From Deroplatys truncata (lineage: Eukaryota > Arthropoda > Insecta > Mantodea > Mantidae): a stretch of DNA of 64,000 nt. Shown here in pieces: positions 8,591 to 61,201 of this stretch. How positions within the stretch are numbered: position 1 is the stretch's first letter; each line of letters starts with the position of its first letter. The stretch covers positions 179,740,096-179,804,095 of the forward strand of contig CM060985.1 of NCBI GenBank assembly GCA_030765065.1. Reading direction: 5' to 3'. The translations under genes and the position numbers were made by a program. Under the pieces are notes generated by a model. The model searched no databases, had not been told where the DNA came from, and saw nothing but the letters and a program-made list of their open reading frames with translations.

Positions 8591-9153
8591 TTGTCGATAT
8601 GTAGAATGCAGAGTCATGTAACCAGGCTGAGACCTAGCGTTGTCGGATGACGAATGTTCGCGGAGAGCATCCTCTTCCTCTGCTCACAGTATCCATTTTC
8701 TGGTTACATGGATATGTAACAAACTGCTAGGACGGTTCTGGAAGCGTAACAGACAAAGGACTGGATCCCTAGCTTTTAAAGATTTTAACCGTTAGTCTGC
8801 CCGAACAAACCCAAGTCAAGTTTGCCTTTCTGGGTGACAAATGTTTCCAGAGAGCATCCTTTGTCCCTTCTATTTTAAGCTTCATAGAGCAAGATATTAT
8901 ACTGATTCGACTCTCCTACACTCGAGACTCGTGTAGGTAAGGAATCGGCATACAACGGAAGTCGCTTGAATTGGAAGTCTTCATATGATGATGATGAGTC
9001 AATGACATGGAGCTTGCTGAGAGAAATGGTGCATTCTAATTTCGAGAGCATCCATATAATTCTTATCGGCTGCATCATAATTATCTTCAGGATCGTGAAC
9101 ATTACACAAACTCTTATTCTCCAGCCCTACAACATACATACTAAAGGAAAGGA

Positions 9154-9315
9154 ATGGGGAATGTGATAAAAGGTGTCTTCTATGTAGATGAACTAAAAAA
9201 GACATATTTAGTAGAAAAGGTTATACGTAAACGCTGAAAGAAAGTTCTTGTAAAGTGGTGTGGTTTTGCAGATACTGAATGGATTGATAAAAAGGGATTT
9301 TGGTGTAATGTATGA
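9154..9315 (+). pseudogene. C-terminal chromodomain of a Polinton/Maverick-type integrase (relic)
   Basis: The frame from 9154 reads GNVIKGVFYVDELKK, then YLVEKVIRKR, a TGA stop at 9235-9237, then KKVLVKWCGF and EWIDKKGF before another TGA at 9313-9315. The order G-x-FY-x2-EL-x-K, VEKVI-x-(K/R), VKW-x-G(F/Y) and WIDKK matches the linker and chromodomain that end the DDE integrases of Polinton/Maverick elements. These bind chromatin and guide integration. The catalytic core upstream is missing or unrecognisable, so this is only a broken tail. It lies tail-to-tail with the spliced gene that ends at 9387. A Gypsy-type chromodomain is less likely because the WIDKK ending is not its usual form. 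Confidence 0.6.
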
Positions 9316-9362: not shown

Positions 9363-9368
9363 TTTATT
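9363..9368 (-). promoter_or_regulatory. Polyadenylation signal AATAAA for the exon-array gene
   Basis: On the minus strand AATAAA lies about 18 nt after the TAA stop at 9387-9389, at the expected distance for a short 3'UTR. It supports the gene model ending here rather than further left, where the opposite-strand integrase relic begins. Confidence 0.6.
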
Positions 9369-9386
9369 TTTAAAATCCTTCATTTT

Positions 9387-10334
9387 TTAATGTCTATTGT
9401 TTTTTTGTTTTTTGAGGCCTTGCTTATACCTCCTAACAACTTCACTTGTCCTCTTCACTCGTCTGTGGTATGCCTGGCTGTTGAAGGTGGTAGTACTACA
9501 GTGAGCGATGTTGGGAAAGGCAGTATGGAATTGAGGGATGTCGGGGGTTTCATCTGTTTGCTGTGATTTAGCAACCCCTGATAGGGGAGTTGCTAAATTT
9601 CTAATCTGAGAGGGTGTGGACGATGTCAGTGATGTGGATAGGAATGGAGGGTTAACGACGATAGGTGGCGGTGTAACTTCAAATATTCTTAAGGTTGAAG
9701 CTGAAGAAAGGGTAGGAGAGGGGATTGAAGATGAGGTAGATGCGGATCGCTGTGAATGTTGTTGCGGTACGCTTAAGTCCCCTGGGAAACCGGAGTGCGT
9801 AGGCGACCCGTGAGTGACTCCATCAAAATAATGACCAAAATCTGAAAATAATAATAAAAATAATAATAATAGTATAGCACGTGTAAAACAAGAACTTCAT
9901 TAAATATTGAAAAATTCTTACCGCTCAGTGGTTGGCGAGTACTTGACCCTCCTGGGAAACCGGAGGGCGCAGACGACTTGTCGCTGTCTTCATCAAAAAA
10001 ATAAAGACCGAAATTTGAAAATAATAATAATAATAGTATAGCACGTGTAAAACAAGAACTTCATAAAATATTGAAAAAAATCTTACCGCTCAGTGGTTGG
10101 CGAGTACTTGACCCTCCTGGGAAACCGGAGGGCGATGACGACTCGTCGCTGTCTTCATCAAAATCTGAAAATAATAATAATAATAATAATAATGATAATA
10201 GTATAGCACGTGTAAAACAAGAACTTCATAAAATATTGAAAAAAATCTTACCGCTCAGTGGTTGGCGAGTACTTGACCCTCCTGGGAAACCGGAGGGCGA
10301 TGACGACTCGTCGCTGTCTTCATCAAAATCTGAA

Positions 10335-10366
<32 letters not shown>

Positions 10367-12025
10367 TAATAGTATAGCACGTGTAAAACAAGAACTTCAT
10401 AAAATATTGAAAAAAATCTTACCGCTCAGTGGTTGGCGAGTACTTGACCCTCCTGGGAAACCGGAGGGCGCAGACGACTCGTCGCTGTCTTCATCAAAAA
10501 AATAAAGACCGAAATCTGAAAATAATGATAATAGTATAGCACGTGTAAAACAAGAACTTCATAAAATATTGAAAAATTCTTACCGATCGGCGGATGCTAA
10601 TAATAATAATAATAATAATAATACTACTAATAGTAGTATAGCATTTGAAAAACAGGAACTTCATAAAATACTGAAAAATTCTTACAAATCGGTAGTTGCT
10701 GATCGCTTGACCAGGGAAAACCGGAGACTCCGACGCCTCGAGGGCGTCTTCCTCAAAATTAAAGACGCCAGTAATTTACACGTTAGATTTTATTTATTTA
10801 TTTACTTAGTTTTTAATAGAAAAGTTATATATTATTAAGTTATTTTACTTTATTGCGAATAGCTTATACAGGGAAAATGTCAATGTATTTTTTTTTAAAC
10901 ACCTGAGAAATTTCTATTGCAAAAAAATAAAGCACTTGTATTTCTCGACACAGTCATGGAAAATATCTCTTTTAACATGATGGTAACAGGCTGAAAGTTT
11001 TTACTAAATAAATGCGCGAGAGGAATGAAACATTCACAGTGAATGTTCGACCAATGCATGCAAACAGGAAGTCCACGGATCGATTACCACCGGTTACCAT
11101 CGGAAGAATCTTTATACAGAACATTTTTATTCGATTCGTTGAGGTTTTCAAGTAATTGTATTTCTCTAGAAAGGAATATAATTCACTTGGTGAAAACACG
11201 TATTTAAATACCCGGAATAATAATTACTCAACACGATGAATACTTAACTAAACTGTTCACATTTTTTTTTTTTTTTTTTTTGAGAATTCAGCCAGCTAGA
11301 TATTAACAGTAGAAGTTCAGCTATTCGCATATAAATGCCCAACATTAAAAACAAGAACGCAAATATAAGTTAAATGTACAGAGTAATAATTTAACTTTTA
11401 AAGTAAATGAAGTGTTTTTACATAAAGAAAGTTATATTATTAAGTTAATTTACTTTATTGCGAATAGCTTATACAGGGAAAATGTCGATGTATTTAACAA
11501 TCAAGGAATTTCTATTACAAATAAAGCACGTGTATTTCTCGACACAATCATGGAAAATATCTCTTTTTAACGTGATGGAAACAGACTGAAAGTATTTACT
11601 AAATAAATGCGTGAGAGGAATGAAACATTAACTGATGAATGTTCGATCAATGCATGCAAACAGGAAGTCCACGGATCGATTACCGTCGGTTACCCTCGGA
11701 AGAATATTTATACAGAACATTTTTATTCGATTCGTGGGGGTTTTCAAGTAATTGTATTTTCTCTAGAAAGGAATATAATTCACTTGGTGAAAATACGTAT
11801 TTAAATACCCGGAATAATAATTACTCAAAAAGATGAATACTTAACTAAACTGTTCACATTTTTTTTTTTGAGAATTCGCGCAGCTAGATATTAACAGTAG
11901 AAGTTCAACTATTCGCATATAAATCCCGACATTAAAAACAAGAACGCAATTATAAGTTAAATGAACTGAGTAATAATTTAACTTTTAAAGTAAATGAAGT
12001 GTTTTTTTTACAACTTACCAGACAT
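9387..12025 (-). CDS. Spliced gene with a tandem array of acidic repeat exons (unknown function)
   Basis: Model (minus strand): exon 1 coding 12025-12019 (ATG TCT G, donor GTAAGT); exon 2, uncertain, 10751-10686; exons 10515-10423 (93 nt), 10329-10252 (78 nt), 10164-10087 (78 nt); last exon 9841-9387 ending in TAA. From the third exon on, acceptors are TATTTTCAG, donors GTAAGA, and all junctions are phase 1. The sum is 777 nt, about 258 residues. Each middle exon encodes a module like DFDEDSDESSSPSGFPGG followed by Ser/Thr/Arg/Gln/Pro residues; the last exon starts with a diverged module, then a long Ser/Thr/Pro-rich stretch and a basic tail (YHRRVKRTSEVVRR). I do not recognise the family. 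The acidic Ser repeats and basic tail suggest a nuclear or nucleic-acid-linked protein, but that is inference. The frame through a 453-nt terminal exon plus promoter and poly(A) signals makes a chance model unlikely. Confidence 0.65.
9922..10014 (-). pseudogene. Repeat exon with destroyed acceptor (probably skipped)
   Basis: This 93-nt unit is nearly identical to the exon at 10423-10515, but its acceptor reads TTTTCAA instead of TTTTCAG. Its donor GTAAGA is intact. One Glu codon of the acidic run is changed to Lys (GACAAG). Because the exon is phase 1 at both ends, skipping it leaves the reading frame unchanged. Confidence 0.65.
10584..10596 (-). other. Possible 13-nt micro-exon
   Basis: Between TTATTAG and GTAAGAATT lie 13 nt. 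If the preceding exon is read in its acidic frame, it ends in phase 0 and these 13 nt would return the frame to phase 1. If exon 2 instead starts at GAAGAC after TTTTGAG, the micro-exon is not needed. The sequence does not decide between the two. Confidence 0.25.
10823..12012. repeat. 605-bp tandem duplication inside intron 1
   Basis: Two copies (about 10823-11426 and 11427-12012) share many blocks, for example TACAGGGAAAATGTC at 10867 and 11472. They differ by scattered substitutions and small indels, including a long T run near 11262-11280 in the first copy. Neither contains a plausible exon on the minus strand. They lie between exon 1 and the repeat exons, so the duplication lengthened the first intron. 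Confidence 0.8.
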
Positions 12026-12090
12026 GATGTTCGATGAAATTTAAAGTTGAATGAGAAAAGTTTGTAGAGGTCTTAGCTCGTTGATGATAG

Positions 12091-12200
12091 CTGAGAAACT
12101 GTAAGAATTTCTGGTGAAACAGTCTTTTATAGTGCTCTTTTGCAATACAAAAATGTATGCGGGAAAGTTTAAGATATATAATACAACGATTTTGATTGGC
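12091..12200 (-). promoter_or_regulatory. CCAAT/TATA promoter of the exon-array gene
   Basis: On the minus strand there is AGCCAATCA (CCAAT core 12195-12199), then CTATAAAAG (TATA 12131-12126), then ACAGTTTC, whose A at 12100 lies 31 nt from the first T of the TATA box, like an arthropod initiator. The leader is about 75 nt to ATG 12025, which has A at -3. The spacing is what a core promoter needs; the transcription start itself is predicted, not observed. Confidence 0.6.
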
Positions 12201-12345
12201 TACTCCAAACCTTCGAGTAGAAGTAGAGGGAAATGCTAGCCTCGCACAGGGGCACTTCGTAAGCAAGCCTAAACCTGTTATGGGGAAATCCGACATCACG
12301 CCAGCTCTCCTTAAGGGAATGCTTCTGCATATGACGCTAGGAAAT

Positions 12346-12918: not shown

Positions 12919-13094
12919 CGCTAGGAAATAAAAATATATTTTATTTTTTACATGTACCGCTAAAATTCATTGTTAATTATTGTTACATTACCGAAATAAT
13001 CGCAGAGTGAAATTAAGGTATTGTTTCTGTTGATATAATTTTCCTTGTAAGGCTACACACGCGGTTATAAAAATCGTTAAGGGTTCTAAAGTCG

Positions 13095-13165
13095 GGTAGG
13101 GTAGTCACCGGGAATCGAACCTATGAACTCTCCTGTTCAAACCTCGCACGTTACCCATGTTAAAT
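13095..13165 (-). other. tRNA-like segment with A and B box matches
   Basis: On the minus strand TGGGTAACGTG resembles a pol III A box and GGTTCGATTCC is a perfect B box, at tRNA-like spacing. No matching acceptor stem is visible, so it is more likely a tRNA-derived SINE head or relic than a working tRNA gene. A similar B-box remnant lies near 20372-20390. Confidence 0.35.
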
Positions 13166-13406
13166 AAGGCTGTTATTCATTAAATATTTCATTCATCTAT
13201 AAACTATATCGTAAATAACAGGCTAGCTTCAAAGAACAATTGTGAAAATCTATCAGATACATTCGATCACTTAATTTTGAATTCAATCTCTCCCATTTTT
13301 AATGCCATACTCTTCATATCACCCTCTACAAATCATATTTATTTGTTTAGGATTCCATAAAAAATTAGTTTAATTGTCGATATCTCGCAAAAAAATACGA
13401 TATAAG

Positions 13407-13925
13407 TTGTTTAAAACGTTCTCGTCCTATGTTTACTAAGAGAATAAGCCAACCTTTTTAAATGGAATAAAACTTGATTGCCTCTGAGAAGGAAATAATA
13501 CTTGGAGATAAATGTAATAGTCACGAATGCTTACTGAGACAATCTATACACTACGCGTGAAAAAATACATGTTTTAAACAGAGTCCATTCCTATAATCTA
13601 TATGGGCAGGGGTTTTTTCCTGTAAGATCGCTATGCTTTTGATGGTTCGATCTCTCTCTCTGCTGGAATATTAAAAAAATATCTCTCGAAGGGAGGGTTG
13701 TTTAAAACGTTCTCGTCCTATGTTTACTAAGAGAATAAGCCAACCTTTTTTAAATGGAATAAAACTTGATTGCCTCTGAGAAGGAAATAATACTTGGAGA
13801 TAATTGTAATAGTCACGAATGCTTACTGAGACAAGCTATACACTACTCGTGAAAAAATACATGTTTTAAACAGAGTCCATTCCTATAATCTATATGGGCA
13901 GGGTTTTATTTTTCCTGTAAGAACG
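13407..13925. repeat. 291-bp direct repeat, two units
   Basis: The units begin GTTGTTTAAAACGTTCTCG near 13407 and 13698 and run about 225 bp with few differences, separated by 65 bp of unrelated sequence. High identity suggests a fairly recent duplication. No coding content is seen. Confidence 0.75.
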
Positions 13926-14839
13926 TTATGCGTTTAATTATAATTTCAGAGTAAAAAGAAAATATCGCTTCTCACCGTTTAATTTTCCTAACGCTAAGAG
14001 TCATTCAATATTTTATTGAAAGAAATAAGAGATATGAAACTTAATCATTAATAATCTTCATGTAGAATTTAAATTACTTATTGGAGGAAAAAAATGTTTT
14101 AGCAGGCTTGTAATTGTCTGGTTTAGGATTTTCCTGTCTGCACGGGTGACCTACGCAGAGCAATTAGGAAGCCTTTCAAGCTGGGCATTAACGGTATGAC
14201 AGACGTCAATTGTATCCTTAAAGGTTACTTCCCCAGCGGTCGGGGTTTTTTTTCCGTCAAGGGTGTACAAAATTTCCTTTACATCGGGGTTTCTTTTTCA
14301 GTTTAGCGAAGAGTAACAAGGATTGTGTCTTGTTTAGGATAGGCTCCATATTTCATTATTTATTTAGAATTAAACAAATGTTATTAGTCGTAATAGTTAT
14401 ACACGCGTAATAATCAACTTAACACCCGAACACATGCGACAGCAACCAAAATGCGCAAGTCAATTCATATACAATTAATTAATAAAAATATTTAATTGTA
14501 TTCATCGATCAGCGGGACTGTTATTTATTTTTAATAACGTATGGAATATTTAACTATAATGTTAAACGTATTTATTTCGCTGATGAGGGTATACAGGACC
14601 CAGTATGCATTCTTAAAGTCTCTTAAGATGTTTAATGTAGTGGAAACGTCTGCCATTGCCCGCTAATGGGGGTATACATGGACATTTCTTCCGAGAACAC
14701 CGTATGCGTTCTTCAGGGGTGTACAGCATATTTCTTTCAATCAGGGTACGCACGTGAATAATTCGTCGAATTTCTCAAAGATCGCTACGTCTTTAGAAAG
14801 AACATTTAAAAATCGAATATCAAATTTATATTTGATGTT

Positions 14840-15350
14840 TCGAATTTCTTGTAAGGAGAGGGATAGAGAGAGAGCTTGTATGATGGACACAGTGTCTGTT
14901 TTGAAAGATCCCTGCAGAAAGTAATGCATGTTTTGAAGGTTCTGTAAGGAGAGGGAGAGCTTACGTGTTGGACACGATATCTGTTTTGAAAGTAATGCAT
15001 GTTTTGAAGGTTCTGAAAGGAAAGGGAGAGAGCCTACGTCTCGGTCACAATGCACGTTTAGAAGTCCTCTCTCCATGTTATTACCTCATTTCGCGATACT
15101 TTTATATCTACTAAGAAAGGTATGCCTGTTTTGAAGGCTGTGTAAGGGGAGAGAGAGAGAGCTTGTATGATGGAGACAATGTCTGTTTTGAAACTTCCCT
15201 GTATGTTTTGAATGTTTTGAAAGGAAAGGGAGAGAGCCTACGTCTCGGTCACAATGCACGTTTAGAAGTCCTCTCTCCATGTTATTACCTCCTTTCGCGA
15301 TGATTTTATATCTAAGAAAGGTATGCCTGTTTTGAAGGCTGTGTAAGGGT
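14840..15350. repeat. Tandem repeats with GAGAG and GTTTTGAA blocks
   Basis: A larger unit of about 203 bp is repeated (CCTACGTCTCGGTCACAATG at 15033 and 15236). Inside it are shorter 60-70 bp units containing GTTTTGAAGGTTCTG and AGGGAGAG. Because the units carry few stops on the minus strand, two open frames there begin with the same 20 residues; I regard them as repeat artefacts. Confidence 0.7.
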
Positions 15351-16194
15351 AATTATTGCTTCTCTCGAGTGAGAAGAGACATAGCGGTCTTATATTTTTT
15401 AACATCAGTTGGAGCGTGCCCCCGCATGTGGCGTGATGGATACCCCTAGCCATTAAGAGCAGGTACCGGGGAAAAACCCTAGCGTCCTGGTTTAACCACT
15501 TCTTAAGCTTCATTGTATTAGACGATGCACAGCGGTCGCATGCGTCTTGTTTTTCGTAAAGGGTTCTCGTGTTAACGTCTCACACTAGCTATTTACAACG
15601 TCCTTTTCAGTCGCTTTTTTAATTCGTCTAAGCAATGTAATATTTTTATAAGCCCTCCGCTCAAAAGAAGAATTATACAAATTTTATTAGTTGTAATAGT
15701 TATACATGCGTAATACTCACACATATACGAGAACAACCAGGTGCGCGAGTCAATTCATATACAATTAATTAATAAAAAAACTTAATTGTTTTCATTGATT
15801 GACGTGCCGCGTTTAATTTCAAATGCGATGTCATTAGTAGGTGAAAAATGGGTGCTCTAGGTGCGCAAGTCAATTACATTAATCAATCAATAATACTTAA
15901 TTGGTCGACGAGCAGCGTTTAATAACCTCACCCCTTTAGAGGCATGATGGCCTGACATTAGCAGTATATAAACATTGATTCTTTTTTTTTCAATATCGCA
16001 TTACCTAATTGATTGACACAATTATCTCATCAAATCGTTAACATGTTTTACCGACGCCGACAGAATGGAGCCTGGCTAGTCTACACATCGAGACTTGTTA
16101 GTGACGTCACGCACACAGTCGTGGAGTGTGGGTGAAACTGGTTATTATTAGACCGAAGTCGGCTGGCGGGTTTTTCATTACATGTCGGACTGTT

Positions 16195-20589: not shown

Positions 20590-21380
20590 TTAGTACACGT
20601 GGACACGTATCAAAGCTGCAATCTGCCCGGCACCTGCGAGAGCAAGAATCACTTGCTGTACACATGCCTCTGTGGACATGTGTCAAGTCTGCCCTCTCCC
20701 CGGCACTTGTGGGAGCAGAGGTACTGAAGTTGTATACATGGCTCTGTGGACATGTGTCGAGTCTGCCCTCTCCCCGGCACGTGTGGGCGCAGAGGTACTG
20801 ATGTACACATGTATCCGCGGACAGGTGTCGAGTCCTGCATCTCCACTGCACGTGTGGGAGCAGAGATATTGATGTACACATGTATCCGCGGACAGGTGTC
20901 GAGTCCTGCATCTCCACTGCACTTGTGGGAGCAGAGGTACTGAAGTTGTACACATATGTCTGTGGACATGTGTCGAGTCTGCCCTCTCCCCGGCACGTGT
21001 GGGCACAGAGGTACTGATGTACACACGTGTCTGTGGACATGTGTCGAATCTGCCATCTCCCCGGCACGTGTGGGCACAGAGGTACTGATGTACACACGTC
21101 TGTGGACATGTGTCGAATCTGCCATCTCACCGGCACGTGTGGTAGCAGAGGTACTGATGTACACACGTGTCTGTGGACATGTGTCGAATCTGCCATCTCA
21201 CCGGCACGTGTGGGAGCAGAGATATTGATGTACACATGTGTCTGTAGACATGTGTCGAGTCTGCCATCTCCCCGGCACGTGTGGTAGAGATATTGATGTA
21301 CACATGTGTCTGTAGACATGTGTCGAATCTGCCATCTAACCGGCACGTGTGGAAGCAGAGATATTGATGTACACATGTGT
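20590..21380. repeat. 71-bp minisatellite, left part (about 11 units)
   Basis: Units contain TGTACACATGTGTC, GGACATGTGTCGAGTCTGCC and CCGGCACGTGTGGG. Unit length is mostly 71 bp with shorter and longer variants; this part is more heterogeneous than the right part. It ends exactly where I-type copy A begins, and resumes at 36475, so one array was split by the insertion. Every unit carries the palindrome CACGTG or a near match. Confidence 0.95.
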
Positions 21381-23159
21381 CCCCTCAGGGGCTCACCTTA
21401 TGTGAGTACGGGTTTTTGGCGCACCCGGGGGTTCCCGAGCCAATCATCGCCACCTTCATCCCCTCACCCCCATCCGGTCGAGGTGGGTTCTTCAAGTGAC
21501 CGGTGGACCCAAGGTAGGCTCTTGTGCGTTCTTTGCATTCCATACATACCGCACCTCACCATCGTTTCTTTCTTCCCTAATCACTTTCCGGCCATTTCGT
21601 ACCACGACATTCGCATATCTCTTTTTCTTCCCCGCCGGCCTACCTTGCGTGCGAAACGCCCACACAGTTTTAGTTTCTTTTATCTTTTTATTTAAATCCT
21701 CCGTGGACACAGCCTGACGGATACCCGCGCACCGCGTGCGCAGCTGGGTGAGTGGGTAATGGCGTCATCCCCACCACCCGGGGTCGTCATGTAGGGTTGT
21801 TCGTATCCGCTGTTCAACTGCAGTCCCGCGGGGGGCCATTGCATGAGCTGCTGGCTTCCGACGGCGATTGGGTCCCTCTGTCTATGTTCTGGGAGGTGTG
21901 ACCCTGGGGTGAGCTAGGTATAGATAGGCCACTCACCCAAGCCGGGGTAACGCCCAGGAAGTCAGAGCCCGAGGTCGGAGACGGTTGCAATGGTGGAGGA
22001 TTTTTTTCGCTATGGAGCACCCTTTCTCCATTATAAACAACAAGCGCCGTAAAACTTTAGTAACAGAAGTAGCACCGCCAACAGCTGGTTGTTACTTAGT
22101 GATTACCCGTACAGAGGAAGGACAATCATTCGAGAAGGTGAACCCTTTTATCATCCAGAAGGGCATTGACTCAATTGCTGGTCCGGTTCTTTCCTGCACT
22201 CGGCTTCGTAATGGTTCGTTGTTAGTGCAAAGCAAATCCGAGGCACAAAGTAAGTCCTTGTTGAGCGCCACGCTTCTCCACGGTTATCCTATCCGTGTTG
22301 AGAAGCACCGCACCTTGAATTCTTGTAGAGGCGTTGTCACCACGCATAGTCTCGATGGTATCTCTGACGAAGACCTGGTGGAATATCTTGCAGACCAGAG
22401 GGTGACAGCGGTTCATCGAGTGCAGGCCAAACGCGACGGCGTGTTGGTACCCACTCGTACCCTGTTTATTACATTTGATGGCGTCGATCTGCCTACGAGC
22501 AGTACCACGAGTAGATGCCGAAACTCAGACCTGGACCTTGACTGGATTAACCGCCACTACCATCCGGCCGTCTATTAAGGCTACAGTTACCAAGCCGTAT
22601 AAACCTGGTCCCAAGTCAATGAAGTCGCAAGCCGTTGAAAAGAAGCCCAAGCAGAAACTACGTAGGGAAGATTTTTTGAAAGACCCTCCGCGTGCGCGCG
22701 GTAACAAAAGTTCACCTTCTCCTCCTCGGAGGTCGCTGTCCCAGGAAGGTCCTGGGACAAGCCGCGCTCAGCGGCACCCTTCACCCATCGCCACCCAGAA
22801 CCGATTCACGGCGCTTGAATTGGTTTCTGGCACTGAGCGCGTGGGCCCTCCCTCCGAGGAAGCTATGGAGTCTGACCAACTCCATACAAAAAGCCCGAGC
22901 CCAAAGGTTAAACAAAAGGTAATTTTAAGCCGCCCTTCTAAATAGACAGTTTATCCCCTTATTTTTAATGGCTGTCCTGACCTGGAATGTACGTGGTGTA
23001 CGATCGCATAGGGCGGAACTGCAGCTTTTATTGCGTTCCCATTCACCTATGGTCGTATGTTTGCAGGAGACTAAGCTTCGCCCTCACGATCCGTTTGATC
23101 TCCGAGGATATACTCCGGTTCGCTACGACCTTGAACCGGAGGAGGGTACTCGTGCTCAT

Positions 23160-26461: not shown

Positions 26462-27098
26462 CCCCTCAGGGGCTCACCTTATGTGAGTACGGGTTTTTGG
26501 CGCACCCGGGGGTTCCCGAGCCACTCATCGCCACATTCATCCTCTCACCCCCATCCGGTCGAGGTGGGTTCTTCTCGTGACCGGTGGACCCAAGGTAGGC
26601 TCTCGTGCGTTCTTTGCATTCCATCCATACCGCACCTCACCATCGTTTCTTTCTTCCCTTATCACTTTCCGGCCATTTCGCACCACGACATTCGCATATC
26701 TCTCTTTTTCTTCCCCGCCGGCCTACCTTGCGTGCGAAACGCCCACACAGTTTTAGTTTCTTTTATCCTTTTATTTAAATCCTCCGTGGACACAGCCTGA
26801 CGGATACCCGCGCACCGCGTGCGCAGCTGGGTGAGTGGGTAATGGCGTCATCCCCACCACCCGGGGTCGTCATGTAGGGTTGTTGTTCGTATCCGCTGTT
26901 CAACTGCAGTCCCGCGGGGGGGCCATTGCATGAGCTGCTGGCTTCCGACGGCGATTGGGTCCCTCTGTCTATGTTCTGGGAGGTGTGACCCTGGGGTGAG
27001 CTAGGTATAGATAGGCCACTCACCCAAGCCGGGGTAACGCCCGGGAAGTCAGAGCCCGAGGTCGGAGACGGTTGCAATGGTGGAGGATTTTTTTCGCT

Positions 27099-28388
27099 AT
27101 GGAGCACCCTTTCTCCATTGTTAACAACAAGCGCCGCAAAGTTTTTGTAACAGAAGTAGCACCGCCAACAGCTGGTTGTTACTTAGTGATTACCCGTACA
27201 GAGGAGGGACAATCATTCGAGAAGGTGAACCCTTTTATTATCCAGAAGGGCATTGACTCAATTGCTGGTCCGGTTCTTTCCTGCACTCGTCTTCGTAATG
27301 GTTCGTTGCTAGTTCAAAGCAAATCCGAGGCACAAAGTAAGTCCTTGTTGAGCGCCACGCTTCTCCACGGTTATCCTATCCGTGTTGAGAAGCACCGCAC
27401 CTTGAATTCTTGTAGAGGCGTTGTCACCACGCATAGCCTCGATGGTATCTCTGACGAAGACCTGGTGGAATATCTTGCAGACCAGAGGGTGACAGCGGTT
27501 CATCGAGTGCAGGCCAAACGCGACGGCGTGTTGGTACCCACTCGTACCCTGTTTATTACATTTGATGGCGTCGATCTGCCCACGAGCATTTCCGCAGGGT
27601 ACGAACGGATTTCTGTGAGGCCTTATATTCCTAGACCTCTGCGTTGTTTTAAATGCCAACGTTTTGGGCATACGCAAGTCTCATCTAAGAGTGCCGTTAA
27701 CATCTGTGCAACCTGTAGCCAGCCCTCACACGAAGGTACCTGTTCAACAGCCCCCGTCTGCGTTAATTGTAAAGGGTCTCATTCTGCTTCGTTTGCCGAC
27801 TGTCCGCGGTACTTGGACGAGAAGGCGATCCAGGAGATCCGGGTAAAGGAAAAACTCTCCTTCGCTGAAGCCCGGAGGCGTTACCATGCGCGCCAACCTT
27901 CATTCCTGCGATCTGGCACATTTAGTTCTGTTGTTGCCTCGCCAGTACCACGCGTAGATGCCGAAACTCAGACCTGGACCTTGACTGGATTAACCGCCAC
28001 TACCATCCGGCCGTCTATTAAGGCTACAGTTACCAAGCCGTATAAACCTGGTCCCAAGTCAATGAAGTCGCAAGCCGTTGAAAAGAAGCCCAAGCAGAAA
28101 CTACGTAGGGAAGATTTTTTGAAAGACCCTCCGCGTGCGCGCGGTAAGAAAAGTTCACCTTCTCCTCCTCGGAGGTCGCTGTCCCAGGAAGGTCCTGGGA
28201 CAAGCCGCGCTCAGCGGCACCCTTCACCCATCGCCACCCAGAACCGATTCACGGCGCTTGAATCGGTTTCTGGCACTGAGCGCGTGGGCCCTCCCTCCGA
28301 GGAAGCTATGGAGTCTGACCAACTCCATACAAAAAGCCCGAGCCCAAAGGTTAAACAAAAGGTAATTTTAAGCCGCCCTTCTAAGTAG
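27099..28388 (+). CDS. ORF1 protein of I-type copy C (Gag-like, CCHC knuckles)
   Basis: 429 codons from ATG 27099, chosen because the open frame upstream of it has only a TTG. The N-terminal half begins MEHPFSIVNNKRRKV and contains a region like an RNA-recognition fold; near residue 190 is a knuckle RCFKCQRFGH whose last Cys is Ser (TQVSSK), then CATCSQPSHEGTC and a CVNC-type third motif. The C-terminal third is Lys/Pro/Ser-rich and basic. Known role of such proteins: RNA binding, particle formation and chaperone activity. The Cys-to-Ser change probably weakens zinc binding in the first knuckle. It ends 20 bp before ORF2. Confidence 0.9.
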   Translation: MEHPFSIVNNKRRKVFVTEVAPPTAGCYLVITRTEEGQSFEKVNPFIIQKGIDSIAGPVLSCTRLRNGSLLVQSKSEAQSKSLLSATLLHGYPIRVEKHRTLNSCRGVVTTHSLDGISDEDLVEYLADQRVTAVHRVQAKRDGVLVPTRTLFITFDGVDLPTSISAGYERISVRPYIPRPLRCFKCQRFGHTQVSSKSAVNICATCSQPSHEGTCSTAPVCVNCKGSHSASFADCPRYLDEKAIQEIRVKEKLSFAEARRRYHARQPSFLRSGTFSSVVASPVPRVDAETQTWTLTGLTATTIRPSIKATVTKPYKPGPKSMKSQAVEKKPKQKLRREDFLKDPPRARGKKSSPSPPRRSLSQEGPGTSRAQRHPSPIATQNRFTALESVSGTERVGPPSEEAMESDQLHTKSPSPKVKQKVILSRPSK

Positions 28389-28408
28389 ACAGTTTATCCC
28401 TTTTATTC

Positions 28409-31400
28409 ATGGCTATCCTGAGCTGGAATGTACGTGGTGTACGATCGCATAGGGCGGAACTGCAACTTTTATTGCGTTCCCATTCACCTATGGTCGTGTG
28501 TTTGCAGGAGACCAAGCTTCGCCCTCACGACCCTTTCGATCTCCGAGGGTACACTCCGGTTCGCTACGATCTTGAACCGGAGGAGGGTGCTCCTGCTCAT
28601 GGAGGTGTCATGTTGTTGGTGCGTAATGACGTTCATTTTCATCCTATCACACTTACGTCCGACTTGCAAGCTGTTGCCATTAGACTGCAGTTACCCGGTT
28701 TTTTCTTTTCTGTTTGTTCTGTGTATACACCTCCATCGTCTCCCCTCGCTCCCGCGGACATTCGATCTCTCCTGTCCGCTCTCCCAACACCATTTCTTCT
28801 GTTGGGAGATTTTAATGCCCATCACCCACTATGGGGTTCGCCAAGGGCTTGTGCGAGGGGAACTCTTCTTTCCGACATTTTTTATGAGTTCAATCTTTCC
28901 ATCCTCAATACAGGTGCACCTACTTTTATTTCTGATTCTTCTGGTACTTTCTCTCACCTGGACCTTGCTCTTTGCTCAATCCAGCTTGCACGTCGCCTTC
29001 AGTGGAACGTCGTCGCTGACACCTACTCCAGCGACCATTTCCCCTGCATCGTTTCTCTTCTGTCGCACCACGTACAGCATTCCAGAGTACCTACCTGGAT
29101 ATTCGCAAAAGCCGACTGGAGCTTGTATTCCAGCCTCGTGCATTTTGACGACCAGCCCTTCTCCGACATTAATCAACTAGTGCAGCACCTTACGTCTATT
29201 ATTTTCTCAGCCGCCGAACGTGCAATACCCCGTTCATCCTCCCAACCTCGGCGGCCACCTGTTCCGTGGTGGAACGAGGATTGTCGGGACGCCGTTCGTG
29301 CCCGTAGGACTGCACTTAGGGTGTTTCGGCGCCACCCTACACTTGATAATTTGGTGACTTTTAAACAATCGCGCGCCAGGGCTCGTCGCATTATTCAGGA
29401 TAGCAAGAAGGCATCTTGGGCTCGTTTTGTCGAGTCTTTTAATCGTTTTACGCCTTCATCCGTTGTTTGGGATAAACTTCGTCGCTTCTCAGGTAAAGTG
29501 TCACATTGTACTGTTTCTGGCCTTCAGGTTTCTAATGCCACCATAGTGGATCCGGCTGCCATCGCTAACACTCTGGGTTCTGCCTTTGAGGCGGTTTCCA
29601 GTTCAGACCATTATTCCGCCGGCTTTCGCTCTATTAAAGACCGGCAGGATTCCGCATCCTATACTTTTCGGTCTGCTAATGATGAATGCTATAACGAATT
29701 ATTCACAATGAGGGAGCTGGAGCACGCTCTTCATTGCTCTCGGCACTCCGCTCCCGGGCCGGACGGCATTCATGTCCTGATGTTAAAGAACCTTTCAGCC
29801 GACAGTAAACTATTTCTCTTACAGGTCTATAACCGTATTTGGCAAGACGGCATTTTTCCTTCCGTTTGGCGCGAAGCCACCATTGTCCCCATACTTAAGC
29901 CTGGGAAGGATCGCCAACTACCTTCCAGCTACCGCCCTATCTCTCTCACCAGTTGCATTTGCAAGGTGATGGAGCGCATGATCAACGGGCGGTTGACATG
30001 GTGGCTTGAGTCTCAGAAACTTCTAGCGAACGCTCAGTGCGGGTTTCGTCGCTATCGCTCTACCGTCGACCATCTGGTGTCCTTGTCGACGCATATTATG
30101 AATGGATTTCTGAGAAAGTGTCAAACCGTGGCTGTATTTTTTGACCTGGAGAAAGCTTATGACACTTGTTGGAGGGGCGGCATTTTACGTACACTTCACG
30201 ATTGGAATATCCGCGGTCGTCTTCCCATATTTCTTCGGGAGTTTATGACGGACCGCGTCTTTCGTGTACGTGTGGGCTCGGTTTTATCTCGTCGTTTTAT
30301 TCAAGAGAACGGAGTACCGCAGGGCTCTGTACTCAGTGTCACACTTTTTGCGATTGCTATCAACCCCATTGTTGATTGTATTCCACCTGGCATTTCATCG
30401 TCCCTTTTTGTTGACGATTTCGCTATTTATTGCAGTTCACGGCGGACCTGTCTACTCGAACGCCGTCTCCAGAGCTGTATCGACCGTCTCTACGCCTGGA
30501 GTAACGCCAACGGCTTTAATTTCTCCGCCGAGAAATCCGTCTGCATCAACTTCTGGCGCCGGAAGTATTTCCCTCCGCCCTTTCTCCATCTTGGGCCAGG
30601 GATACTTCCGTTTGCAGACGAGGCGAAATTTTTGGGGTTGATTTTTGACAGGAAGTTGTGTTGGACCTCGCACGTTTCCTTTTTAAAAGCAAAGTGTGAC
30701 CGTTCTCTTAATATTTTACGTGTTTTAAGTGGCACATCCTGGGGAGCTGATCGGACCGTCCTTCTTCGCCTTTATCGCTCTTTGGTCCGATCCAAACTTG
30801 ATTACGGGTGTATAGTTTATTCGTCGGCACGTCCATCTGTGTTACGTCGTTTGAATCCCATTCATCATCGTGGTCTTAGAGTCGCTACAGGGGCCTTTCC
30901 AACTAGCCCCGTGCCCAGTCTTTACGCTGAGGCTGCAGAGCCTCCGCTGTCTTTCAGGCGTGAGATGCTCTTATGTAGCTATGCTTGTCGGCTCTCAAGC
31001 TTGCCTAACCACCCGTCCTTCCATGTATTTTACGAGGATTCGCTAGATCGACAATATTTCGTTCGCTCCTCTGCATTGCTCCCCCCAGGGGTTCGATTTC
31101 GACTGCTACTTCGGCATTTGGACGTTACGCCAGCGCCGGCCCTTACCCGAGGGGAAACGCGTTTTCCTCCATGGTCGCGCGCTGAGGCCCACATCCACCT
31201 TGGGCTAACGTCGATGCCGAAAAATGCGACCCCTGCTTCTGTTCTTAGATCCGCCTTTTTAGAACTACAGGCGCAGTTCGGGGACTGTCATTTTATATAT
31301 ACTGATGGGTCTAAGACTGATGTTGGAGTAGGATGTGCCTTTGTTTTTGGTGTACGGAGTTTTACTTTTCGTTTACCTCAACAATGTTCAATTTTTACCG

Positions 31401-32098
31401 CCGAACTTTTTAGCATTTATCAATCTGTTTTATTCATTCAGCGGCACGACTTACGGCACTGTTTTATTTGTACGGACTCTCTGAGTGCCCTTCAGGCTAT
31501 TCATGCGCTGTACAATTACCACCCACTCGTACAGCGCATACATGACCTGCTCCACTCGCTCGGTGTCTCTGGCATCAGCGTCTCCTTCATGTGGATTCCA
31601 GGTCATGTGGGCATCTCAGGTAACGAGTCTGCCGACGCCGCTGCGAAATCGGCGATTTTATTACCCAGATTTTTTACCTCTGTAGTTCCCTCGTCAGATT
31701 CGTGTGCTATTTTACGTCGCCGCATCCTCTCGCGCTGGCGCGATGAGTGGACGGCCCTCCGGGGGAACAAGTTGCGGGAGGTTAAGCCTCTCCCGTTAAT
31801 CTGGGGTACCTCTTCTCGTTCTTCACGTCGGGAGGAGGTACTTTTAGCCCGTTTACGAATTGGACATTGTGTTTTTAGTCATAGGTATTTGCTCAGTGGT
31901 GACCCCGCACCACTCTGTGGGCAGTGTGACGTACCCTTAACGGTGCGTCACATTTTAACAGAGTGTCAGGTTTTAGCTGCATTGCGTGCTCGTGTAGGTC
32001 TGCCTGTTGGCTTAGCCAACGTTTTGGCAGACGACACGCATGCTGTGGAATGTGTTTTACGTTTTATTCATGACAGTGATTTTAATCTGCGCATTTAA
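28409..32098 (+). CDS. ORF2 protein of I-type copy C (endonuclease, RT, RNase H)
   Basis: 1229 codons, uninterrupted. Endonuclease: WNVRGVRSH, LQETKL, GDFNAHHPLWG (about 131) and SDHFPCI (about 205). RT: SSYRPISLTS, CGFRRYRST, FFDLEKAYDT, NGVPQGSVLS and the catalytic FVDDF (about 665). RNase H: IYTDGSK (about 963), FTAELF, FICTDS and the GNESADAAAK end. The C-terminal finger is CGQCDVPLTVRHILTEC. The RNase H domain places the element in the I group rather than Jockey or R1. Family role: nick the target, copy the element RNA and remove RNA from the hybrid. All expected catalytic residues are present, but its ORF1 has a damaged knuckle. Confidence 0.95.
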   Translation: MAILSWNVRGVRSHRAELQLLLRSHSPMVVCLQETKLRPHDPFDLRGYTPVRYDLEPEEGAPAHGGVMLLVRNDVHFHPITLTSDLQAVAIRLQLPGFFFSVCSVYTPPSSPLAPADIRSLLSALPTPFLLLGDFNAHHPLWGSPRACARGTLLSDIFYEFNLSILNTGAPTFISDSSGTFSHLDLALCSIQLARRLQWNVVADTYSSDHFPCIVSLLSHHVQHSRVPTWIFAKADWSLYSSLVHFDDQPFSDINQLVQHLTSIIFSAAERAIPRSSSQPRRPPVPWWNEDCRDAVRARRTALRVFRRHPTLDNLVTFKQSRARARRIIQDSKKASWARFVESFNRFTPSSVVWDKLRRFSGKVSHCTVSGLQVSNATIVDPAAIANTLGSAFEAVSSSDHYSAGFRSIKDRQDSASYTFRSANDECYNELFTMRELEHALHCSRHSAPGPDGIHVLMLKNLSADSKLFLLQVYNRIWQDGIFPSVWREATIVPILKPGKDRQLPSSYRPISLTSCICKVMERMINGRLTWWLESQKLLANAQCGFRRYRSTVDHLVSLSTHIMNGFLRKCQTVAVFFDLEKAYDTCWRGGILRTLHDWNIRGRLPIFLREFMTDRVFRVRVGSVLSRRFIQENGVPQGSVLSVTLFAIAINPIVDCIPPGISSSLFVDDFAIYCSSRRTCLLERRLQSCIDRLYAWSNANGFNFSAEKSVCINFWRRKYFPPPFLHLGPGILPFADEAKFLGLIFDRKLCWTSHVSFLKAKCDRSLNILRVLSGTSWGADRTVLLRLYRSLVRSKLDYGCIVYSSARPSVLRRLNPIHHRGLRVATGAFPTSPVPSLYAEAAEPPLSFRREMLLCSYACRLSSLPNHPSFHVFYEDSLDRQYFVRSSALLPPGVRFRLLLRHLDVTPAPALTRGETRFPPWSRAEAHIHLGLTSMPKNATPASVLRSAFLELQAQFGDCHFIYTDGSKTDVGVGCAFVFGVRSFTFRLPQQCSIFTAELFSIYQSVLFIQRHDLRHCFICTDSLSALQAIHALYNYHPLVQRIHDLLHSLGVSGISVSFMWIPGHVGISGNESADAAAKSAILLPRFFTSVVPSSDSCAILRRRILSRWRDEWTALRGNKLREVKPLPLIWGTSSRSSRREEVLLARLRIGHCVFSHRYLLSGDPAPLCGQCDVPLTVRHILTECQVLAALRARVGLPVGLANVLADDTHAVECVLRFIHDSDFNLRI

Positions 32099-35000: not shown

Positions 35001-36474
35001 CTCTGCATTGCTTCCCCCAGGGGTTCGATTTCGACTGCTACTTCGGCATTTGGACGTTTCGCAAGCGCCGGCCCTTACCCGAGGGAAAACGCGTTTTCCT
35101 CCATTGTCGCGCGCTGAGGCCCACATCCACCTTGGGCTGACGTCGATGCCGAAAAATGCGACCCCTGCTTCTGTTCTTAGATCCGCCTTTTTAGAACTAC
35201 AGGCGCAGTTCGGGGACTGTCATTTTATATATACCGATGGGTCTAAGACTGATGTTGGAGTAGGATGTGCCTTTGTTTTTGGTGTACAGAGTTTTACTTT
35301 TCGTTTACCTCGACAATGTTCAATTTTTACCGCCGAACTTTTTAGCATTTATCAATCCGTTTTATACATTCAGCGGCACGACTTACGGCACTGTTTTATT
35401 TGTACGGACTCTCTGAGTGCCCTTAAGAGTATTACTGCGCTGTACAATTACCACCCACTCGTACAGCGCATACATGACCTGCTCCACTCGCTGGGTGTCT
35501 CTGGCATCAGCGTGTCCTTCATGTGGATTCCAGGTCATGTGGGCATCTCAGGTAATGAGTCTGCCGACGCCGCTGCGAAATCGGCGATTTTATTACGCAG
35601 ATTTTTTACCTCTGTTGTTCCCTCGTCAGATTCGTGTGTTATTTTACGTCGCCGCATCCTCTCGCGCTGGCGCGATGAGTGGACGGCCCTCCTGGGGAAC
35701 AAGTTGCGGGAGGTTAAGCCTTTCCCGTTGATCTGGGATACCTCTTGTCGTTCTTGTCGTCGGGAAGAGTTAATTTTTGCTCGTTTACGGATTGGACATT
35801 GTGTTTTTAGTCATAGGTAATTGCTCAGTGGTGACCCCGCACCACTCTGTGGGCAGTGTGACGTGCCCTTGACGGTGCGTCATATTGTAACAGAGTGTCA
35901 GGTTTTAGCTGCATTGCGTGCCCGCGTGGGTCTGCCTATTGGCCTAGCCAACGTTTTGGCAGACGACACGCGTGCTGTAGAATGTGTTTTACGTTTTATT
36001 CATGATAGTGATTTTACTCTGCGCATTTAATGCGTTGAGCGTCTTTTAGCTTAATACTTTTCTTCTGTCAGTTTTTATGGGGACTCTAATCCCCAGTGGA
36101 CAATTGGCGCTCATGTCCCTCGCATTCTATAGTTCTTGACACGTTTTAATCGTTTATTGCCTATGCTTTTAGTGTGTTGGTTTTTTCAGATATTTATATT
36201 GTTATTATTGTTGTTATTGATTTTATTGTTGTTATTGATTTTATTGTTGTTATTGATTTTATAGTTGTTATTGATTTTATTGTTGTTATTATTGTTGTTA
36301 TTGTTATCTTATTGTTATTTTTAGCCTTTTGGACATCGCGGGTTTACGTCCTGTTTTTAATTATGCGGTTTTTTTTACCTGTTTTTATATTTTGACTTTA
36401 TATTTTATACATTGTAAGGGCGCTGATGACCTCAGTAGTTTAGCGCCCTTAAGCCGCATATCATCATCATCACT

Positions 36475-38870
36475 ACACATGTGTCTGTAGACATGTGTCG
36501 AGTCTGCCATCTCACCGGCACGTGTGGGAGCAGAGATATTGATGTACACATGTGTCTGTAGACATGTGTCGAGTCTGCCATCTCACCGGCACGTGTGGGC
36601 GCAGAGGTACTGATGTACACACGTGTCTGTGGACATGTGTGGAGTCTGCCATCTCCCCGGCACGTGTGGGCGCAGAGGTACTGATGTACACACGTGTCTG
36701 TGGACATGTGTGGAGTCTGCCATCTCCCCGGCACGTGTGGTAGCAGAGGTACTGATGTACACACGTGTCTGTGGACATGTGTGGAGTCTGCCATCTCCCC
36801 GGCACGTGTGGGAGTAGAGGTACTGAGTTGTACACATGTGTCTGTGGACATGTGTCGAGTCTGCCCTCTCCCCGGCACGTGTGGTAGCAGATGTACTGAT
36901 GTACACACGTGTCTGTGGACATGTGTGGAGTCTGCCATCTCCCCGGCACGTGTGGTAGCAGAGGTACATATGTACACACGTGTCTGTGGACATGTGTGGA
37001 GTCTGCCATCTCCCCGGCACGTGTGGTAGCAGATGTACTGATGTACACACGTGTCTGTGGACATGTGTGGAGTCTGCCATCTCACCGGCACGTGTGGTAG
37101 CAGATGTACTGATGTACACACGTGTCTGTGGACATGTGTGGAGTCTGCCATCTCCCCGGCACGTGTGGGAGTAGAGGTACTGAGTTGTACACATGTGTCT
37201 GTGGACATGTGTCGAGTCTGCCCTCTCCCCGGCACGTGTGGTAGCAGAGGTACTGATGTTGTACACATGTATCCGCGGACAGGTGTCAAGTCCATCTCCC
37301 CGGCACGTGTGGTAGCAGAGGTACTGATGTACACATGTATCCGCGGACAGGTGTCGAGTCCTGCATCTCCACGGCACGTGTGGGAGGAGAGATATTGATG
37401 TACACATGTGTCTGTGGATATGTGTGGAGTCTGCCATCTCCCCGGCACGTGTGGGAGCAGAGGTACTGATGTACACATGTGTGAGTCTGCCATCTCCCCG
37501 GCACGTGTGGGAGCAGAGGTACTGATGTACACATGTGTGAGTCTGCCATCTCCCCGGCACGTGTTGGCGCAGAGGTACTGATGTACACATGTGTCTGTGG
37601 ACATTTGTGGAGTCGGCCATCTCCCCGGCACGTGTGGGAGTAGAGGTACTGATGTACACATGTGTCTGTGGACATGTGTGGAGTCTGCCATCTCCCCGGC
37701 ACGTGTGGGAGTAGAGGTACTGATGTACACCTGTGTCTGTGGACATGTGTGGAGTCTGCCATCTCTCCGGCACGTGTGGGAGTAGAGTTACTGATGTACA
37801 CATGTGTCTGTGGACATGTGTGGAGTCTGCCATCTCCCCGGAACGTGTGGAAGTTGAGGTACTGATGTACACATGTGTCTGTGGACATGTGTGGAGTCTG
37901 CCATCTCCCCGGCACGTGTGGGAGTAGAGGTACTGATGTACACATGTGTCTGTGGACATGTGTGGAGTCTGCCATCTCCCCGGCACGTGTGGGAGTAGAG
38001 GTACTGATGTACACATGTGTCTGTGGACATGTGTGGAGTCTGCCATCTCCCCGGCACGTGTGGAAGTTGAGGTACTGATGTACACATGTGTCTGTGGACA
38101 TGTGTGGAGTCTGCCATCTCCCCGGCACGTGTGGGAGTAGAGGTACTGATGTACACATGTGTCTGTGGACATGTGTGGAGTCTGCCATCTCCCCGGCACG
38201 TGTGGGAGTAGAGGTACTGATGTACACATGTGTCTGTGGACATGTGTGGAGTCTGCCATCTCCCCGGCACGTGTGGGGGTAGAGGTACTGATGTACACCT
38301 GTGTCTGTGGACATGTGTGGAGTCTGCCATCTCCCCGGCACGTGTGGGAGTAGAGGTACTGATGTACACATGTGTCTGTGGACATGTGTGGAGTCTGCCA
38401 TCTCCCCGGCACGTGTGGGAGTAGAGGTACTGATGTACACATGTGTCTGTGGACATGTGTGGAGTCTGCCATCTCCCCGGCACGTGTTGGCGCAGAGGTA
38501 CTGATGTACACATGTGTCTGTGGACATGTGTGGAGTCTGCCATCTCCCCGGCACGTGTGGGAGCAGAGGTACTGATGTACACATGTGTGAGTCTGCCATC
38601 TTCCCGGCACGTGTGGGAGTAGACGTACTGATGTACACATGTGTCTGTGGACATGTGTGGAGTCTGCCATCTCCCCGGCACGTGTGGGAGCAGAGGTACT
38701 GATGTACACATGTGTGAGTCTGCCATCTCCCCGGCACGTGTGGGAGCAGAGGTACTGATGTTGTACACGTGTGTTTGGACATGTGTGGAGTCTCATCTCC
38801 CCGGCACGTGTGGGCGCAGAGGTACTGATGCACACATGTGTCTGTAGAAAGGTGTCGCAGCAATACGGAA
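36475..38870. repeat. 71-bp minisatellite, right part (about 33 units)
   Basis: Highly regular 71-bp units between about 37,600 and 38,570, with 61- and 52-bp variants that lack part of the TCTGTGGACATGTGTG segment. Each unit has ACACATGTGT-type palindromes and CCCCGGCACGTGTGG. No unit carries a stop codon on the minus strand in any frame, and 71 is not a multiple of three, so three long overlapping minus-strand frames (750, 542 and 432 codons) arise; I treat them as artefacts. The array is continuous with 20590-21380 apart from the I-type insertion. Confidence 0.97.
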
Positions 38871-48566: not shown

Positions 48567-49205
48567 TCCCCCTCAGGGGCTCACCTTATGTGAGTACGGG
48601 TTTTTGGCGCACCCGGGGGTTCCCGAGCCAATCATCGCCATATTCATCCCCTCACCCCCATCCGGTCGAGGTGGGTTCTTCAAGTGACCGGTGGACCCAA
48701 GGTAGGCTCTCGTGCGTTCTTTGCATTCCAACCATACCGCACCTCACCATCGTTTCTTTCTTCCCTTATCACTTTCCGGCCATTTCGCACCACGACATTC
48801 GCATATCTCTCTTTTTCTTCCCCGCCGGCCTACCTTGCGTGCGAAACGCCCACACAGTTTTAGTTTCTTTTATCTTTTTATTTAAATCCTCCGTGGACAC
48901 AGCCTGACGGATACCCGCGCACCGCGTGCGCAGCTGGGTGAGTGGGTAATGGCGTCATCCCCACCACCCGGGGTCGTCATGTAGGGTTTGTGTTCGTATC
49001 CGCTGTTCAACTGCAGTCCCGCGGGGGGGCCATTGCATGAGCTGCTGACTTCTGACGGCGATTGGGTCCCTCTGTCTATGTTCTGGGAGGTGTGACCCTG
49101 GGGTGAGTCTGGTATAGATAGGCCACTCACCCAAGCCGGGGTAACGCCCGAGAAGTCAGAGCCCGAGGTCGGAGACGGTTGCAATGGTGGAGGATTTATT
49201 TCGCT
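48567..49205 (+). promoter_or_regulatory. 5'UTR / presumed internal promoter of copy D
   Basis: Shared by copies A, B, C, D, H and, in part, E. It begins with a palindrome CCCCTCAGGGG and a hairpin CTCAC-CTTAT-GTGAG, with an ATG directly followed by TGA (48588-48593), i.e. a start-stop element. Long frames exist on both strands but begin only with GTG. Non-LTR elements must carry their own promoter, so transcription control is expected here; no TATA box is seen. Confidence 0.6.
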
Positions 49206-50495: not shown

Positions 50496-50515
50496 ACAGT
50501 TTATCCCTTTTATTC

Positions 50516-60940: not shown

Positions 60941-61201
60941 GAAACGGGGGCGATAGTAGATTTTGCTGTAAAATCGTGCTATTTGACGTGGTATAAGTTT
61001 TAGAGCAATACGCGCACATGTGCGGGTGTTTTCATCGATCGGTATTGACCATCGCCCTAGTGATAGCAGAACATACGCCGCAGCAGTTGTTCCCATAGTG
61101 CTAAAGCGGAGAAAAATAGTTTAAAATAAAAACAAAATAGCAGAAATACACAGCAGCAGCACTTTGCAGGTAAAGAGCGATCGGTGCATTCGGACGATAA
61201 G

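Follow-up and report, generated by a model that had tools for sequence, protein, structure and literature searches.

A degraded Maverick/Polinton in the mantis Deroplatys truncata that appears to carry a spliced gene of tandemly repeated exons

Does a spliced gene made of tandemly repeated exons, whose product falls into no recognised family, belong to the genome in which it is found or to something that moves within that genome? The question is raised by a stretch of 64,000 nucleotides of the mantis Deroplatys truncata (GCA_030765065.1, contig CM060985.1, positions 179,740,096 to 179,804,095; hereafter the window), in which the original prediction placed such a gene. Mavericks (Polintons) are virus-like jumping elements, to which a position close to the root of several eukaryotic DNA virus groups has been assigned. 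From a comparison of copies across the genome, we read the locus as a degraded, shortened and non-autonomous Maverick/Polinton carrying a spliced gene of repeated exons, with a probability of about 0.75. The original prediction was largely right in outline and missed the setting: the gene is a decayed member of a Maverick-borne family, not an isolated host orphan gene, and it lies in a rearranged element whose 5' part matches that of a presumed family-B DNA polymerase gene (polB). Positions are those of the whole stretch; unless given otherwise, window features belong to the minus-strand gene at 9363–12200.

The genome (4.29 Gb in 818 contigs) was searched with the last exon of the gene, hereafter X. 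By DNA, the best 40 of 97 candidates were scored, at 72–100% identity. As protein, the best 150 of 185 candidates gave 132 rows. Counted at E ≤ 1e-3, these amount to 94 places, and at 63 the identity does not exceed 62%; X is free of stop codons in many of the copies that match at about 50% in this protein search. Twenty other copies of 9.0–9.9 kb each, taken from the better-matching part of the DNA list with divergent copies left out, were read. The promoter, exon 1, intron, modules (the repeated exons) and last exon recur among these 20, not every part in each.

All 21 copies (the window and the 20 other loci) have an integrase or polB piece beside X: integrase in 19, and a polB C-terminal piece in L010, L012, L013 and L015, where L013 and L015 are the two without integrase. 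In L010 and L012, the strand opposite the gene encodes an integrase, an unnamed protein, a fibre-like protein and an A32-like ATPase, and the polB C-terminal piece directly follows X on the same strand. The integrase open reading frame (ORF) of L010 matches Pfam rve (4e-9), the fibre-like protein matches a PHROG tail fibre (6.4e-7), and another ORF of L010 matches Pox_A32 at E = 2.9e-4 with 20.8 bits, under the curated cut-off of 22.8 bits. The L018 copy lies inside a complete short element of 11,237 bp (C16:593318188 to C16:593329424), which begins with AGTAGTCATATCC and ends with GGATATGACTACT (AGTAGT...ACTACT), has inverted arms of about 4.0–4.1 kb (97.2, 98.4 and 95.3% identity in three alignments), and has CATGTC as an exact 6-bp duplication on either side. 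For vertebrate Mavericks, the available passages of PMC8097293 give (AGT)2//(ACT)2 as the commonest end motif, with 6-bp duplications. The elements described here resemble those in their rve integrase, presumed family-B polymerase and perhaps, on the weak match above, A32-like ATPase, and in the ends, target duplication and inverted repeats of the L018 element; they differ in that the inverted repeats reach ~4 kb in this one complete short derivative. General features of such elements are given in the available parts of PMC5718144 and PMC2836005.

In the window, the predicted gene is made up as follows.

12026–12345, minus strand: promoter and 5' leader; ordinary copies have a homologous region ahead of polB
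12131–12125, minus strand: TATA box TATAAAA, within the promoter
12019–12025, minus strand: exon 1, ATGTCTG, 7 nt, with donor GTAAGT; also present in the ordinary copy L051
10809–12006, minus strand: most of intron 1, a tandemly duplicated unit of ~600 bp (12006–11414 versus 11419–10809, 90% identity; L051 has a single unit)
10686–10766, minus strand: decayed module, GTAAG donor kept and AG acceptor gone
10584–10596, minus strand: 13-nt module stub flanked by TTAG and GTAAG, its length not divisible by three
10423–10515, minus strand: exon M1, 93 nt, DFGLYFFDEDSDESSAPSGFPGGSSTRQPLS, between CAG and GTAAG, phase 1
10252–10329, minus strand: exon M2, 78 nt, DFDEDSDESSSPSGFPGGSSTRQPLS
10087–10164, minus strand: exon M3, 78 nt, peptide identical to that of M2
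9922–10014, minus strand: module M4, 93 nt, its acceptor lost by mutation (CAA, in TTTTCAA)
9387–9841, minus strand: last exon X, 455 nt, 150 codons and TAA, no Met
9363–9368, minus strand: AATAAA, inside a stretch of Maverick sequence whose L010 counterpart lies between the integrase and the C-terminal piece of polB

The promoter element, the seven-base first coding exon and the 150-codon last exon agree with the original prediction, and a plain ORF scan sees, as it had said, only an antisense shadow (10005–10505, plus strand, 166 aa from stop to stop, without Met). Other claims hold in part. The repeated acidic exons of 93 or 78 nt comprise three that are usable (93, 78 and 78 nt), but the fourth (93 nt) has no acceptor and for that reason is probably skipped in this copy, and two modules upstream are wrecked. 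M1–M3 have TTTTCAG acceptors, GTAAG donors, phase 1 junctions and lengths that are all multiples of three, although the claim that every junction fits fails for those that no longer work in the window. The poly(A) signal is present, but the comparison with L010 assigns it to Maverick sequence rather than to the gene itself. Joined together, the usable exons give a reading frame of 236 aa. Window X is without 48 in-frame nt that most other copies have; an alignment gap of ~49 nt here had raised the idea of an intron inside the last exon, which was ruled out, the gap being this 48-nt coding stretch.

Twenty of the 21 copies contain modules, 64 altogether. The CAG acceptor is kept in 56 of the 64 and the GTAAG donor in 59, and 55 of the 62 modules with measurable length are multiples of three (78, 90 or 93 nt), the remaining seven being off by one. 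Against this, among 41 introns of 67–130 nt (one false 5,277-nt interval, of 42, is excluded), 15, 19 and 7 have lengths of 0, 1 and 2 modulo three. A pattern search found exon 1 with its donor, ATGTCTG|GTAAG, in 17 of the 21 copies, and variants shared among 42 modules of 93 nt fall 8, 8 and 19 times on codon positions 1, 2 and 3. The predicted introns are spliceosomal in type (GT-AG with a T-rich (TTA)n tract), and the window-type gene appears, from these comparisons, to be spliced. Ten of 22 last exons are open to an A-rich end, where the position of the stop varies. Six of these ten contain no Met and the other four have one each, at residue 72–128; therefore, the whole of X would be translatable only from an upstream start. 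The predicted product opens with MS and continues with modules that are acidic and aromatic and appear similar to activation domains; a stretch rich in Ser, Thr and Pro follows, and then a basic tail. In agreement with the original prediction, it belongs to no recognised family: Pfam and PHROGs gave no families, the best PDB match is not convincing (E = 0.18), and one scan of viral contigs (IMG/VR) gave no relatives of X.

The arrays vary from one to six modules per copy. Modules are 95.4% identical within a copy (86 pairs) and 86.6% identical between copies (1,684 pairs), 60 of the 64 having been compared for number and identity, and the repeated exon–intron unit measures about 165 bp and includes the (TTA)n tract, which is itself variable. 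The likeness within copies, together with the repetition of whole units, argues for unequal exchange or slippage of in-phase units. As each exon is in phase and comes with an intron of its own, the frame would survive gain and loss of modules. The growth by whole exon–intron units that was originally proposed is therefore backed by the comparison of copies, the (TTA)n tract being inside the repeated unit.

The 5' half of the gene is shared with a much larger set of elements. A search with the polB C-terminus, in which the best 150 of 12,332 candidates were scored, gave frames of up to 1,362 aa. We take these to be polB on account of the motifs KKMNNAVYG and YMDTDS, the position convergent to the integrase, and a general likeness to polymerases of this kind. 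A 356-bp stretch of promoter and exon 1 gave 2,033 candidates, and six of the best 40, which were scored, lie within 4 kb of an X match. When 56 of the best 150 polB C-terminus rows were compared, ten promoter matches lay within 40 kb of a polB C-terminus, nine of them upstream of it on its own strand, at 5.2–6.4 kb, and the tenth at a distance of 18 kb. Since no X match (among the best 150 of 185 candidates) lies within 40 kb of these nine ordinary promoter–polB loci, X marks a minor lineage.

The ordinary copy L051 has, in order, a TATA box, ATGTCTG|GTAAG, a single intron unit of 600 bp, three exons (117, 129 and 195 nt) and a polB N-terminal exon, all in phase 1; the 195-nt exon contains one stop and the polB N-terminal exon is frameshifted. 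In L028, exons of a type marked by GLYFG run into the polB N-terminus, one being 121 nt long and off frame and another containing a stop. L010 has three GLYFG-type exons (129, 120 and 120 nt), then four acidic 93-nt modules (one with CAA), then X. Exon 2 of L051 gave 1,557 candidates, and in 24 pairs taken by eye it lies 3.4–5.0 kb (median 4.64 kb) upstream of the polB C-terminus; the GLYFG exon gave 4,191, with five loci holding two of them at 200–214 bp spacing. Seven loci, again by eye, have promoter, exon 2, GLYFG exon and polB C-terminus in this order on one strand. The promoter, exon 1 and intron 1 of the window gene therefore match the 5' end of the presumed polB gene, and ordinary Maverick copies themselves already have predicted phase-1 exons in tandem, separated by (TTA)n introns.

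Exon 2 also occurs in inward-facing pairs about 8.6–8.9 kb apart (C3:170392958+/170401575-, C6:172981830+/172990444-, C16:407950161+/407959102- and others), which are perhaps short Maverick derivatives with long inverted repeats that include the polB 5' exons. The polB sequence is broken after TTCATTTT, with L011 (377–1330 in gene orientation) on the left side of the break and L010 and L012 on the right side. The junction of polB with the X promoter in L011 and that of X with polB in L010 and L012 fall almost on one base of the empty copies (1,496 versus 1,499). A single insertion of a promoter–X block might explain both breaks; for the L011 junction, a rearrangement that duplicated the promoter block is the tentatively preferred reading. 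The idea of X as a foreign gene freshly inserted in polB after the DTDS motif was favoured at first and dropped once L051 showed that in ordinary copies polB itself has the promoter and exon 1 ahead of it.

Three other accounts of the locus were weighed. A multi-copy host gene family, spread by segmental duplication and close to Mavericks by chance, would suit a promoter, introns and poly(A) site that look real, as well as copies that are in some cases 5–40 kb apart. However, integrase or polB pieces adjoin X in every one of the 21 copies read (the divergent copies of the protein search being outside that count), the promoter, exon 1 and array are common to ordinary Maverick copies, and in L018 a complete 11.2-kb element with its 6-bp duplication encloses the copy, so that a host family is highly improbable. 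It is also quite unlikely that the array is a decaying tandem repeat with chance splice-like sites, neither spliced nor translated: exon lengths are multiples of three in 55 of 62 cases against 15 of 41 for introns, shared module variants favour third positions, ATGTCTG|GTAAG is kept in 17 of 21 copies, and X frames are stop-free at about 50% identity, even though 12 of the 22 last exons are broken and the window has lost the M4 acceptor and had its upstream modules ruined.

A rather unlikely alternative, which accepts the Maverick setting, is that X is the 5' region of polB, cut by a deletion that left a stop codon and spread as junk in non-autonomous elements. The shared promoter, exon 1, intron 1 and GLYF exons agree with this, as does the polB C-terminus that comes after X on the same strand in L010 and L012. 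The alignment of X to the polB N-terminal exon, however, is not clearly above shuffled sequence (9 of 150 shuffles reach its score), leaving X as a diverged polB N-terminus unsupported, and many copies at about 50% identity keep X stop-free.

Several results weigh against the preferred reading, that of a Maverick with a spliced gene of repeated exons. A 619-aa stop-free polB piece (L049) found nothing convincing in Pfam, PHROGs, NCBIfam or PDB, and in a single comparison its match to the window's Pfam-confirmed polB, which belongs to a different element, was weak though colinear (E = 0.040); because the polB identity is unsupported by database profiles, our confidence was slightly lowered. One scan of viral contigs gave no relatives of the polB piece. 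Translation of the presumed polB could also begin at a Met within the large exon of L028 (its residue 12), so splicing may not be necessary for it. Stop-free frames in 143 of the best 150 exon 2 matches (mostly open over 51–68 codons) and in 141 of the best 150 GLYFG matches come from sets of best matches, which are hence biased to intact frames. L018, the one complete element, is without promoter and exon 1, and a search of the window copy recognised no Maverick terminus. The broken last exons count here as well, and Met occurs in 7 of 53 in-frame modules (L025, L026 and L027), the window modules having none. The excess of synonymous changes among shared over private X variants is modest: synonymous to nonsynonymous counts are 39:64 for variants shared by at least two copies and 24:68 for private ones, and among nine window-like copies, where the excess is clearer, 13:10 and 20:47, in copies that are related, so that these are not independent events. 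The ratio of mean nonsynonymous to mean synonymous divergence (dN/dS) of X is 0.55, and pairwise values among the ten open copies, in which pairs share ancestry, span 0.31–1.22 and are near 1 for some close pairs.

The surroundings of the gene were annotated as follows.

9120–9288, plus strand: relic of an integrase C-terminus, convergent with the gene
9011–9121, minus strand: relic of a fibre-like Maverick protein, inverted relative to L010 and L012
12346–12919, plus strand: later insertion of a 5'-truncated long interspersed nuclear element (LINE), of the same family as the other LINEs of the window
12919–16121, no strand assigned: upstream sequence, probably of a Maverick terminal inverted repeat, with homologous blocks in shuffled order in both L018 arms and its outer end not found in the window

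In the window copy polB is absent, and relics of integrase and the fibre-like gene were all that was found there in place of an intact core set. Both ends of the inserted LINE carry the 11-bp repeat ATTTCCTAGCG (12345–12335 and 12929–12919), and the insertion point is uninterrupted in other copies that hold the site. A second, different Maverick/Polinton lies at 61184–63147 of the window (plus strand), with a polB fragment (DNA_pol_B_2, 7.8e-19).

By sequence, the locus keeps the promoter, exon 1, intron 1 and tandem phase-1 exons of ordinary copies, with the short exon X and its own stop standing in place of the polymerase exon. If the preferred reading is right, the host spliceosome would join the transcript in the nucleus into MS, n acidic aromatic modules (DFGLYFFDEDSDES...) and X, and the joined product would end in a basic tail. 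Unequal exchange between ~165-bp units would add or drop modules with the frame intact. X elements would be mobilised by enzymes from the many polB-carrying Mavericks, and X would be under selection in the source elements.

Nine opposite-strand pairs of X lie within 20 kb of each other, all inward-facing and none outward-facing, and five of them are 6.8–8.0 kb apart. C10:170305552/170313595 is one of the inward-facing pairs, with about 8 kb between its members. The two members of such pairs have similar identities, and one pair, 19 kb apart, has promoter matches beside both members. X appears to lie within long inverted repeats at these pairs. Tentatively, the X elements could be Maverick satellites, short and with very long inverted repeats, whose only remaining gene, a spliced one, combines the polB promoter and first exons with the new protein X, module number being tuned by unit exchange and X helping the satellite to exploit the replication or capsids of full Mavericks. 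The orientation of the nine pairs and the stop-free X at about 50% identity fit this possibility and do not prove it.

Of the 94 X places, 49 fall on contig C16 (707 Mb), which makes up 16.5% of the genome (binomial p about 2e-15); the enrichment is weaker for polB C-terminus matches (42 of 150, counted by eye). As a guess, C16 could be a sex chromosome or a low-recombination region. Near the X copy of L014, a piece of a piggyBac-type transposase (DDE_Tnp_1_7, 1.8e-19) lies on the minus strand at 545–1273 in gene orientation.

Short symmetric exons with lengths in multiples of three are known from schistosome micro-exon genes, which are alike in this respect and differ in being host genes without a mobile element context. 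A spliced repeated-exon gene in a Maverick appears unexpected, given that intact vertebrate Mavericks are described without introns in the available passages of PMC8097293; unlike those, the presumed polB 5' part (L051, L010 and L028) and X are predicted here to be split into tandem phase-1 exons. Introns within genes of related virus-like elements have been reported for polinton-like viruses, where the part of PMC12220804 available describes self-splicing group I introns, in contrast to the GT-AG introns of 67–130 nt with a (TTA)n tract described here. Head-to-tail duplication of exons is shared with host genes, in which the available part of PMC9013439 links it to mutually exclusive choice, whereas the in-phase units of the present gene look additive and sit in a mobile element. 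The main text of PMC11071308 mentions neither 'intron' nor 'spliced', and among the open-licence papers listed no title or abstract opening reported a spliced Maverick polB.

If the preferred reading holds, a spliced leader in which exons multiply stands before polB in a Maverick lineage that numbers thousands of polB candidates in a single genome of 4.29 Gb. Such elements could then depend on the host spliceosome, and hence on nuclear expression, and protein length could grow by whole exon–intron units. ORF scans miss genes of this kind, and gene predictors may record them as host orphan genes.

Two near-complete LINEs, possibly young insertions, lie elsewhere in the window, at 27072–32098 and 49179–54205; in both of them, ORF1 (438 aa) and ORF2 (1,229 aa) are open. 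A 71-bp tandem satellite forms two separate arrays, at 20616–21381 and 36474–38845.

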